Made by a program: the position numbers and the translations under genes. From the NCBI GenBank assembly GCA_013298335.1, contig JAAFHI010000022.1, positions 1-13,208 of the forward strand: DNA of 13,208 bases, given 5' to 3'. The notes under the pieces are model-generated. The model made no database searches. It worked only from the letters and a program-made list of their open reading frames with translations, and was not told the DNA's origin. Each line of letters starts with the position of its first letter. The first letter of the stretch is position 1. This DNA comes from Actinomycetota bacterium. Lineage in GTDB: Bacteria; Acidobacteriota; Blastocatellia; Chloracidobacteriales; Chloracidobacteriaceae. Shown here in pieces: positions 10,142 to 12,028 of the stretch.

Positions 10142-10182
10142 GATTTTCGGTAACTGTTCAGAGTCCCCCGCTTTAGCGGGGA
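10142..10182. repeat. Left arm of the inverted repeat of element 1
   Basis: This 41-base arm pairs with 10282-10322; the inner 38 bases (10145-10182) match perfectly and there is one mismatch at 10144. The arm contains GTAACTGTTCAGAG and then a self-complementary CCCCGC-TTTA-GCGGGG hairpin. Confidence 0.9.
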
Positions 10183-10314
10183 GAACGTGAGAAAAGTTCC
10201 TGTTTCGCTCCCCTCATATCCGCCAAAGCGGGAGGAAACGTTCGAAAGCGTCGTTCGACTGATGCACCGTGCCGGTTCCTTTCCCCGCTAAAGCGGGGGA
10301 CTCTGAACAGTTAC
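10150..10314. mobile_element. Palindromic MITE-like element 1
   Basis: This 165-base non-coding unit runs from GTAACTGTTCAG to CTGAACAGTTAC, the same ends as element 2 (10798-10971). Its middle (10183-10281) holds another stem, GTTTC-g-CTCCC (10202-10212) with GGGAGGAAAC (10230-10239), and a third GC-rich CCGC-CAAA-GCGG motif. The interior is unlike that of element 2. No direct target repeat flanks it; instead the flanks are near-perfect reverse complements of each other (GATTTTCG and CGAAAGTC, 7 of 8). With those flanks it fills the whole space between the convergent stop codons of the TlpA-like and thioesterase genes. No protein is encoded. Confidence 0.65.
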
Positions 10315-10322
10315 CGAAAGTC
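10282..10322. repeat. Right arm of the inverted repeat of element 1
   Basis: Reverse complement of 10142-10182 with a single mismatch at 10320. It carries its own CCCCGC-TAAA-GCGGGG hairpin and ends in CTGAACAGTTAC plus 8 further paired bases, just 1 base before the end of the thioesterase gene. Confidence 0.9.
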
Positions 10323-10323
10323 T

Positions 10324-10764
10324 TCAATCCTTTTGGGCTGGCGGAATCGAGTAGGTCCCCGTCGCGTGGGCGACGAGTTCGGTTTCCGCCGCGTTGTAGA
10401 TTGAAACCTCGCCCACCGCGAGCCGCTTGCCGAGTTTGTGCAGGCGTCCGATGCCGATTGCGTCTCCCGCGCTCGGTTTCTTCAAAAAATTGATGTTGAG
10501 ATTGGTCGTCACGGCGAGCGTGACCGGCCCGAGCATCGCCATGACCGCGATGTAGAGCGCCGTGTCCGCCAGCAGAAACAGCGACGGACCGGCGAGCGTC
10601 CCGCCAGGACGCAGATTGCGCTCGGAAAAGTGCAGCCGGACGCGCGAGGTCATCGGCCCGACCGCTTCGACCGTCAAAACGCGGTTCGCCTTGATCGGAA
10701 AGAGGCGGTGCATCAGTTCATCGAGTTCGGCGGCGGTCATGACGGGTTCGGACGGTTTCGACAT
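10324..10764 (-). CDS. PaaI-type hotdog-fold thioesterase
   Basis: The protein has 146 residues and a single 4HBT/PaaI-type hotdog domain, so it probably hydrolyses an acyl-CoA thioester in the cytoplasm. The active-site helix region reads ERNLRPGGTLAGPSLFLLAD. N50 and D67 match the Asn and the catalytic acid of PaaI enzymes, but the usual HGG is replaced by AGP. As I recall, relatives with RPGGT-SGP and a following VTTNLNINFLKKP are a known subfamily, so this is not decay. The ATG at 10764 is preferred; a second ATG at 10740 gives MTAAELDEL. The gene is bracketed by two palindromic elements: element 1 touches its 3' end and element 2 lies 33 bases before its start. Substrate is unknown. Confidence 0.85.
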   Translation of the reverse strand: MSKPSEPVMTAAELDELMHRLFPIKANRVLTVEAVGPMTSRVRLHFSERNLRPGGTLAGPSLFLLADTALYIAVMAMLGPVTLAVTTNLNINFLKKPSAGDAIGIGRLHKLGKRLAVGEVSIYNAAETELVAHATGTYSIPPAQKD

Positions 10765-10789: not shown

Positions 10790-10797
10790 GGTGAAGT
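10790..10797. repeat. Left target-site duplication GGTGAAGT of element 2
   Basis: The 8-base sequence GGTGAAGT directly abuts the left end of element 2 and is repeated in the same orientation at 10972-10979. Confidence 0.9.
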
Positions 10798-10819
10798 GTA
10801 ACTGTTCAGGCCGGTCGTC

Positions 10820-10845
10820 GCCCTGCCCTCAAGGACAGGGCTATT
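10820..10845. repeat. Left 26-bp internal inverted repeat of element 2
   Basis: Perfect reverse complement of 10922-10947. The arm is itself nearly palindromic (GCCCTG-C-CCT-CA-AGG-A-CAGGGC), so each copy can form its own hairpin. Confidence 0.95.
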
Positions 10846-10921
10846 TCCTTTTGAAGCCCCGCGAACGGGGCTCAGAAATCAGGAAAATCGGTTTGAGCCT
10901 CGTTCACGAGGCTTGTTTTTG

Positions 10922-10947
10922 AATAGCCCTGTCCTTGAGGGCAGGGC
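10922..10947. repeat. Right 26-bp internal inverted repeat of element 2
   Basis: Perfect reverse complement of 10820-10845; separated from the right terminal repeat by 12 bases, against 10 on the left, so the element is not fully symmetrical. Confidence 0.95.
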
Positions 10948-10971
10948 AAACGGCGGAGGCTGAACAGTTAC

Positions 10972-10979
10972 GGTGAAGT
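10972..10979. repeat. Right target-site duplication GGTGAAGT of element 2
   Basis: Direct copy of 10790-10797, abutting the right end of element 2 and ending 1 base before the stop codon of the unknown secreted protein gene (10981-10983). Confidence 0.9.
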
Positions 10980-10980
10980 T

Positions 10981-11790
10981 TCAAAACTGCGCGGCCATGA
11001 ACTTTTCCCACGCGGCGCGGTCCATTTTCTCGGTTTTGACGAGTTTGAACTTGAAACTCTGCCATTCGGGGTTGTCGGCGAGGGTGATTTCGACGTCCTC
11101 GAAATGGCCGCCCGCCCGGTTGACCCAGATGGTGCCGCCGCGGTTGGCGAGGCCGGGGCCGTCGATGGTGTACTTCCGGCACATCACGCCGTTGCGCGTT
11201 TCCTCGCCGACGTAGGAAACCGTCACCTCTCCGCGATATGCAAAAAGCGGCCCTTCTTCCTTGAAGGTCGGATCGGCGATGCCGACGGTGAAACTGCCCT
11301 TCGGATTGACCAGATGGCGAAAAGCGAAATTCAGGCTCGCCAGATCGAAGTTGTAGATATGAAAGGGTATCCGGGGAATTGGCGTCAGTTCCGGGGTTTT
11401 CCGGAAGGCCGGAATCGAGACTTCGACCGATTTTTCCATCGGCAGATAGCGCAGGGTGGCGAAGAGATTCTTCTTTCCGCCCGCGAACGCCTGCCACGAC
11501 TCCAGCCGTTTGGCCGAAAATGTCTTCCAGTCCATCACGGCGATGACGAGGCCCGCCCGTTCGCTTTTCGGATGGAATTTGAAGGATTCGATGGTGTCGG
11601 ACGCCGCCACGTAGGTCGAGACGTGTTCGGGCTGCGTCCCGTCAATGTTCGTCTTGAGGTAGTGGTACACCGTTCCGACCGTGACTTTCGACGGTTGAAA
11701 CCTGAAGACGGGAGATTTCGCGGAAATCGCGGGTACTCCGGTAAACAACGCGAGCGTCAGCAGCAGAAGCGCGGAGATTCGTTTTTTCAT
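10981..11790 (-). CDS. Secreted protein of unknown function
   Basis: I do not recognise this protein. From the ATG at 11790 it has 269 residues. Residues 1-24 are a clear signal peptide (MKKRISALLLLTLALFTGVPAISA), with no lipobox cysteine. The mature part is rich in beta-strand patterns. A C-terminal segment has GVMCRKYTIDGPG, then GTIWVNRAGGHFEDVEITL, which recalls the strand pattern of periplasmic DUF3108-like or lipoprotein-carrier-like proteins, but this is only a loose resemblance. There is one mature cysteine, C204. A longer reading to 11934 would bury the signal peptide and is rejected. The start has only a weak upstream CCCGGA. It is followed 9 bases after its stop by element 2 and then the thioesterase gene in the same direction. 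Confidence 0.8.
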   Translation of the reverse strand: MKKRISALLLLTLALFTGVPAISAKSPVFRFQPSKVTVGTVYHYLKTNIDGTQPEHVSTYVAASDTIESFKFHPKSERAGLVIAVMDWKTFSAKRLESWQAFAGGKKNLFATLRYLPMEKSVEVSIPAFRKTPELTPIPRIPFHIYNFDLASLNFAFRHLVNPKGSFTVGIADPTFKEEGPLFAYRGEVTVSYVGEETRNGVMCRKYTIDGPGLANRGGTIWVNRAGGHFEDVEITLADNPEWQSFKFKLVKTEKMDRAAWEKFMAAQF

Positions 11791-12028
11791 GTTCCGGGTG
11801 ACAGCCAGTGGGGGATGGATGAGCGCAAAAGGTATAGCGCATTTCCCGTCGCGGACGCGATTGGAACAGTTGAAAAAAGTGTCACAGCCGTTCCCCGTGA
11901 CCACCGGAAAAGACATACCGTCGGGCGAATTCATCCCTTCGGTTTCCCGGCTTTATCCGCATCCTCATCAGAATGAAGAGGTTCGCCATGGCTCCCAGGC
12001 CGGACGGGCGCAACGAGTGGGTCAAAGG
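11791..12028. other. Intergenic region without a recognisable gene
   Basis: These 238 bases lie between the start of the unknown secreted protein gene and the terminator of the next leftward gene, so a leftward promoter is expected here. The best leftward -10-like motif is TATACC (reverse complement of 11831-11836), without a convincing -35. A 23-codon rightward frame (11973-12044) runs into the terminator and has no ribosome-binding site. I see no conserved RNA structure. Confidence 0.5.

Follow-up and report, generated by a model that had tools for sequence, protein, structure and literature searches.

The window, by which we mean the whole 13,208-nucleotide stretch of DNA analysed, carries genes that, from their translations, we take to be secY, adk, map, ribosomal protein genes, rpoA, accB and accC. 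A 174-bp element (10798-10971) lies between two minus-strand genes. One of these (10981-11934) has no Pfam match and has its stop 9 bp from the element, and the other (10324-10764), of the thioesterase superfamily (4HBT), has its start 33 bp from it. The element is flanked by the 8-bp target duplication GGTGAAGT (10790-10797 and 10972-10979), identified by direct reading and by the duplication count given below. Its left terminal inverted repeat is the 12-bp GTAACTGTTCAG (10798-10809, plus strand), identified by direct reading and an end-motif scan, and its right one is the reverse complement of the same motif (10960-10971, minus strand). Internal to these are the left (10820-10845, plus strand) and right (10922-10947, minus strand) arms of a perfect 26-bp inverted repeat, in which the family alignment places hairpins h1 (10820-10841) and h1' (10926-10947). 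Two inner hairpins, AGCCCCGCGAACGGGGCT (10855-10872) and AGCCTCGTTCACGAGGCT (10896-10913), correspond to h3 and h2, respectively, of the family alignment, which is oppositely oriented.

The duplication, 12-base ends, 26-base repeat and length reported in the first-pass annotation were exact to the base. Its description of the element as non-coding also held, with neither an open reading frame of at least 80 amino acids nor an IS66 transposase gene inside 10798-10971. Folding of the element gave z = -14.7 on both strands, a value equalled by none of 200 shuffles. Rfam returned no match at the gathering cut-off; mir-28 (37.5 bits, cut-off 64) and SmY (21.4 bits, cut-off 39), both under their cut-offs, were rejected as hairpin look-alikes.

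A second element in the window (165 bp, 10150-10314) has the same 12-bp ends and hairpins at 10166-10181 and 10283-10298, and lies 9 bp from the stop codon of both genes of a convergent pair. Its target duplication is gone, with 0 of 8 positions matching; the flanks GATTTTCG (10142-10149) and CGAAAGTC (10315-10322) are nearly inverted, not direct, repeats.

Two groups of inserted elements

The 174-bp element, assigned to group A, matched at least 82 pieces of the genome that contains it (5.1 Mb in 1093 contigs), 40 of 102 candidates having been scored. As the first-pass annotation had anticipated, the ends proved to be multi-copy: GTAACTGTTCAG occurred 61 + 55 times with at most one mismatch, compared with 6 + 3 times for the reversed pattern. 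The 22-base group A arm occurred 59 + 55 times with at most three mismatches, compared with 0 + 0 for its control. Matches listed comprised 100 of the 116 for the ends and 100 of the 114 for the arm, the latter being exact in 82 of those 100. Collecting copies through their arms (at most four mismatches) and assembling arm pairs yielded 48 group A and 39 group B elements, i.e., about ninety related copies in the genome. Unpaired arm matches were also present, several of them at contig ends or interrupted by a third repeat, element C.

Group B, to which the 165-bp element belongs, has 12-base ends as in group A, but each end carries a different hairpin (GTTCAGAGTCCCCCGCTTTAGCGGGGA) and the interior diverges. 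There are four hairpins between the ends in group A and two in group B, and the two groups have only their ends in common. Several very short B copies (L030:984-1061, L260, L261 and L265), of 77-86 bp by our own end calls, have both hairpins and GTTCAG without GTAACT, and resemble REP pairs. In one A copy (L026:129-301) the left arm is flipped and both arms point the same way, which looks like an inversion of the hairpin.

The family appears to be narrowly distributed. No copy of group A was found in 38 relatives, none of which belongs to the same genus, and a 25-base group B pattern, with up to two mismatches allowed, had 41 + 40 matches here and none in 161 further genomes of the class. The exact 22-base A arm had no match in the genome_contigs or viral_contigs collections, from which the organism's own or very near records may have been excluded.

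Target duplications were examined in the 55 copies in which both ends could be recognised (at most four mismatches each). The 8-bp duplication was perfect in 14 copies and matched at seven or more positions in 22, whereas 1000 shuffles of flank partners gave a mean of 0.03 (maximum 1) and 0.17 (maximum 3), respectively. When flank identity was calculated for different assumed lengths, the sole peak was at 8 bp (64%, compared with 41% at 7 bp and 36% at 9 bp). Both A and B copies were thus inserted with 8-bp duplications. For the A copy in the window, a fairly recent insertion is plausible. The best RpoA matches among the 80 loci kept, at 81% identity, came from a Blastocatellia MAG and an uncultured Chloracidobacterium MAG, which makes the host very probably a member of the class Blastocatellia in the Acidobacteriota. 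No empty site was found among these 80 rpoA loci, with at most 8 kb of flank and many ending at a contig edge, none of which contained the tlpA-like, thioesterase or 10981-11934 gene.

IS66-type ends and a candidate transposase

In the available text of PMC11946415, the IS66 family is characterized by GTAA ends, 8-bp duplications and a 20-30 bp inverted repeat starting GTAAGCG. The A and B elements share the GTAA ends and the 8-bp duplication; they differ in having no transposase gene, so that they are not autonomous members, and in perfect ends of only 12 bp that start GTAACTG, a type seen in the IS66 relatives that we examined. These relatives were seven among 412 plasmid records, with 41-48% identity (the ORF limits of L328, L331 and L332 being estimates). 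Four of the seven had similar ends and perfect 8-bp duplications, i.e., those from Chlorohelix (GTAACAATTCAG and GTAACAGTTCAG), Leptolyngbya (GTAACTACTCAGG), Paraburkholderia (GTAACTATTCAGCG) and Acaryochloris (GTTACTGCCCAGG), and three were without clean ends. Three of the four begin with GTAA and one with GTTA, and GTAACTGTTCAG therefore fits that branch of IS66. The earlier attribution of the ends to IS66, made from GTAA and the 8-bp duplication, is supported by the perfect duplications, the peak at 8 bp and these four relatives.

The genome contains one IS66 DDE domain, within a 355-residue open frame that runs off contig C1014 and is classified by NCBIfam as an IS66 transposase. Its stop codon lies inside GTAACTGTTCAA, which agrees with the MITE end at 11 of 12 bases, the other end of the element being off the contig. 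The IS66 N-terminal domain PF13007 was not found in the genome, and the rest of the gene was thus not recovered; neither was a second copy of the IS66 DNA detected among 40 of 83 candidates scored. In the 38 relatives, the protein had weak matches in two only (best 27% identity). Adjoining the gene, at L031:640-1210, are two overlapping frames that look to us like a broken transposase of another, presumably ISKra4-like, family.

We consider IS66-type transposition of the A and B elements to be very probable. In the mechanism that we propose, an IS66-family transposase, probably that of C1014, would have used GTAACTGTTCAG as its recognition sequence and placed the elements in the short spaces that separate genes. 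The first-pass proposal of a MITE mobilised by a resident IS66-type transposase thus stands as regards copy number, ends and duplications; that the C1014 gene is the mover we infer from a gene that is single and incomplete, with one visible end bearing one mismatch in 12. The full-length IS66 element with matching ends that it had also envisaged was found in part, as this one gene and its 3' end, but not as an element with both ends, the contig stopping inside the gene. If a partner of the C1014 type is correct, a complete IS66 element with GTAACTGTTCA ends on both sides would be expected.

The elements have the features of MITEs, being short, non-coding and multi-copy, with terminal inverted repeats and target duplications. 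Bacterial MITEs with assigned parents include MITECca01 (IS982), MITEPsy1 (IS5?), MITEPsy2 (Tn3) and MITEPye1 (IS1182), while MITEPsy3 is thought to be moved by ISPsy25, of IS630 (PMC9769881, PMC3189936, PMC11578231, PMC6053426). As far as the available parts of these papers describe them, they too are short and non-coding with inverted ends, and are copied by a transposase in trans. The A and B elements differ from them by their IS66-type ends, their two groups with nothing but ends in common, and their hairpins, which are more conserved than the ends. Within the parts of the open-access literature searched, we found no MITE attributed to IS66.

Conservation of the hairpins

Of the 48 group A copies, 44 were aligned, four being too long. 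Pairwise identity was highest in the four hairpins (0.93-0.97), intermediate in the three linkers between them (0.58-0.73) and in the ends (0.48-0.52), and lowest in the duplications and flanks (0.20-0.24). The aligned copies were then classed as having a duplication of at least 7/8 (n = 11), a duplication of at most 5/8 (n = 9) or no recognisable end pair (n = 22), two of the 44 with 6/8 being left out. Over these classes, in order, divergence from the consensus was 0.110, 0.208 and 0.496 in the ends, 0.168, 0.298 and 0.269 in the linkers, and 0.025, 0.018 and 0.030 in the hairpins. Copies lacking recognisable ends retain all four hairpins. The hairpins do decay slightly: divergence was 0.048 in the quarter of copies with the most diverged ends compared with 0.013-0.023 in the rest, and the rank correlation between end and hairpin divergence was 0.29 (p = 0.055).

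Because the copies had been located by their arms, arm conservation alone is a biased measure. The inner hairpins, which were not used in finding copies, diverged by 0.025, 0.022 and 0.030 over the same classes. Moreover, in a set selected by ends with hairpins ignored, an A or B hairpin adjoined 87 of 110 ends (A called at an arm with at most six mismatches, B at most five; 23 were neither), and the A arm was exact in 29 of 40. These two results answer the bias in part. In group B, 21 of 77 half-elements (one of 78 was left out) lack the outer GTAACT, where identity is a flank-like 0.24; identity in the same half-elements is 0.95 in GTTCAG and 0.89-0.93 in the stem.

Changes within the hairpins often preserve pairing. 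In group A, 19 compensated double changes were counted against 19 single pair-breaking and nine single pair-keeping (G-T) changes, and in group B, 17 against five and nine, respectively, whereas sliding the partner by 1-2 bases as a control gave 0-3 double changes. Compensated variants recur, 16 of the 17 in group B being one pair change, and they are therefore not independent events. The compensated pair in group B is confined to one arm in 11 of the 14 elements having it, and three group A elements (L017, L021 and L022) have a changed apex in one arm only. The unit that is kept is thus the local hairpin, and not only the long inverted repeat.

From the persistence of hairpins in A copies without recognisable ends, together with the compensated changes, we read constraint after insertion. 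On these sequence comparisons, we consider selection on the hairpins slightly more likely than not. The hairpins would be useful after insertion at the level of RNA or DNA, and selection would for that reason retain them while the mobile ends decay. The account as a whole, in which IS66-type MITEs have hairpins that selection keeps after insertion, we regard as moderately probable. The first-pass reading had none of three features: the second group, the copies that lack ends, and the preservation of the hairpins.

Two explanations dispense with selection. According to the first, these are plain IS66-type MITEs with no host role: all copies would be fairly young, their ends and linkers would have differed from the outset through descent from different source copies, and the hairpins would be unchanged for lack of time or because transposition needs them. 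Copies with perfect duplications do already differ in ends and linkers; mismatches per 12 bases at the two ends were 5 and 2 in L267, 3 and 4 in L025, and 3 and 2 in L018, and end divergence is thus no clean clock. That the searches made found the whole family in this genome alone points the same way. Against this, hairpin divergence is 0.030 and linker divergence 0.27 in copies without recognisable ends, and the centre between the hairpins has fallen to a pairwise identity of 0.58; we regard this explanation as rather unlikely. The second holds that short-tract gene conversion or hairpin-templated repair homogenised the hairpins among copies. The same variants do recur, in several copies and in several arms, which, like the flipped arm of L026, is consistent with it, but the linkers between the hairpins, merely 12-23 columns, were not homogenised. 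Correction of the palindrome should, furthermore, have erased the C-A mismatch of h1, yet 43 of 44 left arms still have it, and we consider homogenisation improbable.

Genomic placement and a putative REP-like role

Gene context was determined from calls made with our own simple codon model. Twenty-six of the 87 elements were left out for lack of a called gene on one or both sides, and a further 15, partly overlapping these, touch the edge of a predicted ORF. Among the 61 classifiable copies, one is inside a predicted gene, and others overlap ORF edges. A long predicted ORF runs uninterrupted through one group B copy (L218:1499-1630), which has a duplication of 7/8. In 43 tandem gaps, the upstream stop lay at a median distance of 10 bp and the downstream start at one of 19 bp, without side preference (stop nearer in 16 of 36 untied cases, p = 0.77). 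From these distances, many copies are probably inside transcription units, and their hairpins would be transcribed there.

That the hairpins act mainly as transcription terminators at gene ends is very doubtful. The group A copy in the window contains two terminator-like sites, and convergent gaps are in excess (16 of 63 gaps with elements compared with 10 of 99 without; Fisher p = 0.015), although the contigs were chosen for holding elements. However, both sites are on the plus strand while both neighbouring genes are on the minus strand, where none is listed; nor is any listed in the window's group B copy, and elements in tandem gaps show the lack of stop-side preference noted above. From the sequence, we favour a putative REP-like role: the hairpins may act at the RNA level, e.g., by shielding the upstream message, or at the DNA level as a site to which a protein binds.

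As far as the available text of PMC3116915 and PMC1525189 describes them, REP, BIME and REPIN sequences likewise comprise inverted pairs of conserved hairpins, are intergenic, have variable spacers and are invaded by other elements at their palindromes. The A and B elements differ by their 8-bp duplications, their IS66-like ends and the lack of any link found to a Y1 gene. Movement of REPIN-like elements by a RAYT (REP-associated Y1 transposase), with the GTAACTGTTCAG ends gained by chance, could account for the inverted hairpin pairs, the variable spacers and the B copies of down to 77-98 bp, and the genome has five Y1 transposase genes. The 8-bp duplications, and the absence of A, B and C motifs from the 2-3 kb around each of these five genes, nevertheless do not support such an origin, which we regard as highly improbable.

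Element C has ends ATGGTYTTTGAAAAATTG that occurred 23 + 17 times with at most two mismatches, compared with 1 + 0 for the control, and 15 copies with both ends measured 256-348 bp. When its flanks were joined, a stem of at least eight pairs formed at the junction in nine of the 15 copies but not in six, compared with 4.5% of 5000 random places, indicating that element C often sits in hairpin tips. Its hosts were A hairpins, B hairpins and one hairpin of neither group (L299). Examples of this palindromic repeat are at L317:790-1058, L301:1250-1518 and L299:1501-1848. The available text of PMC1525189 describes insertion sequences, several of them of the IS110 family, that have REP palindromes as their targets. 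A broader and more tentative possibility is that the elements form a REPIN-like system based on a DDE (IS66) transposase, in which hairpin pairs would spread as MITEs, lose their mobile ends, stay as host elements selected for hairpin structure and then become landing sites for the hairpin-tip-seeking element C.

MITEs are mostly regarded as decaying parasites. The data support a new MITE family whose ends are of IS66 type and whose hairpins are unexpectedly resistant to decay. Within a single genome, some ninety copies have their own inner yardsticks, i.e., duplication, ends and linkers, against which the hairpins hardly decay. Given a sister genome, these yardsticks would allow a sequence-based test of whether a bacterial MITE is useful once it has inserted.
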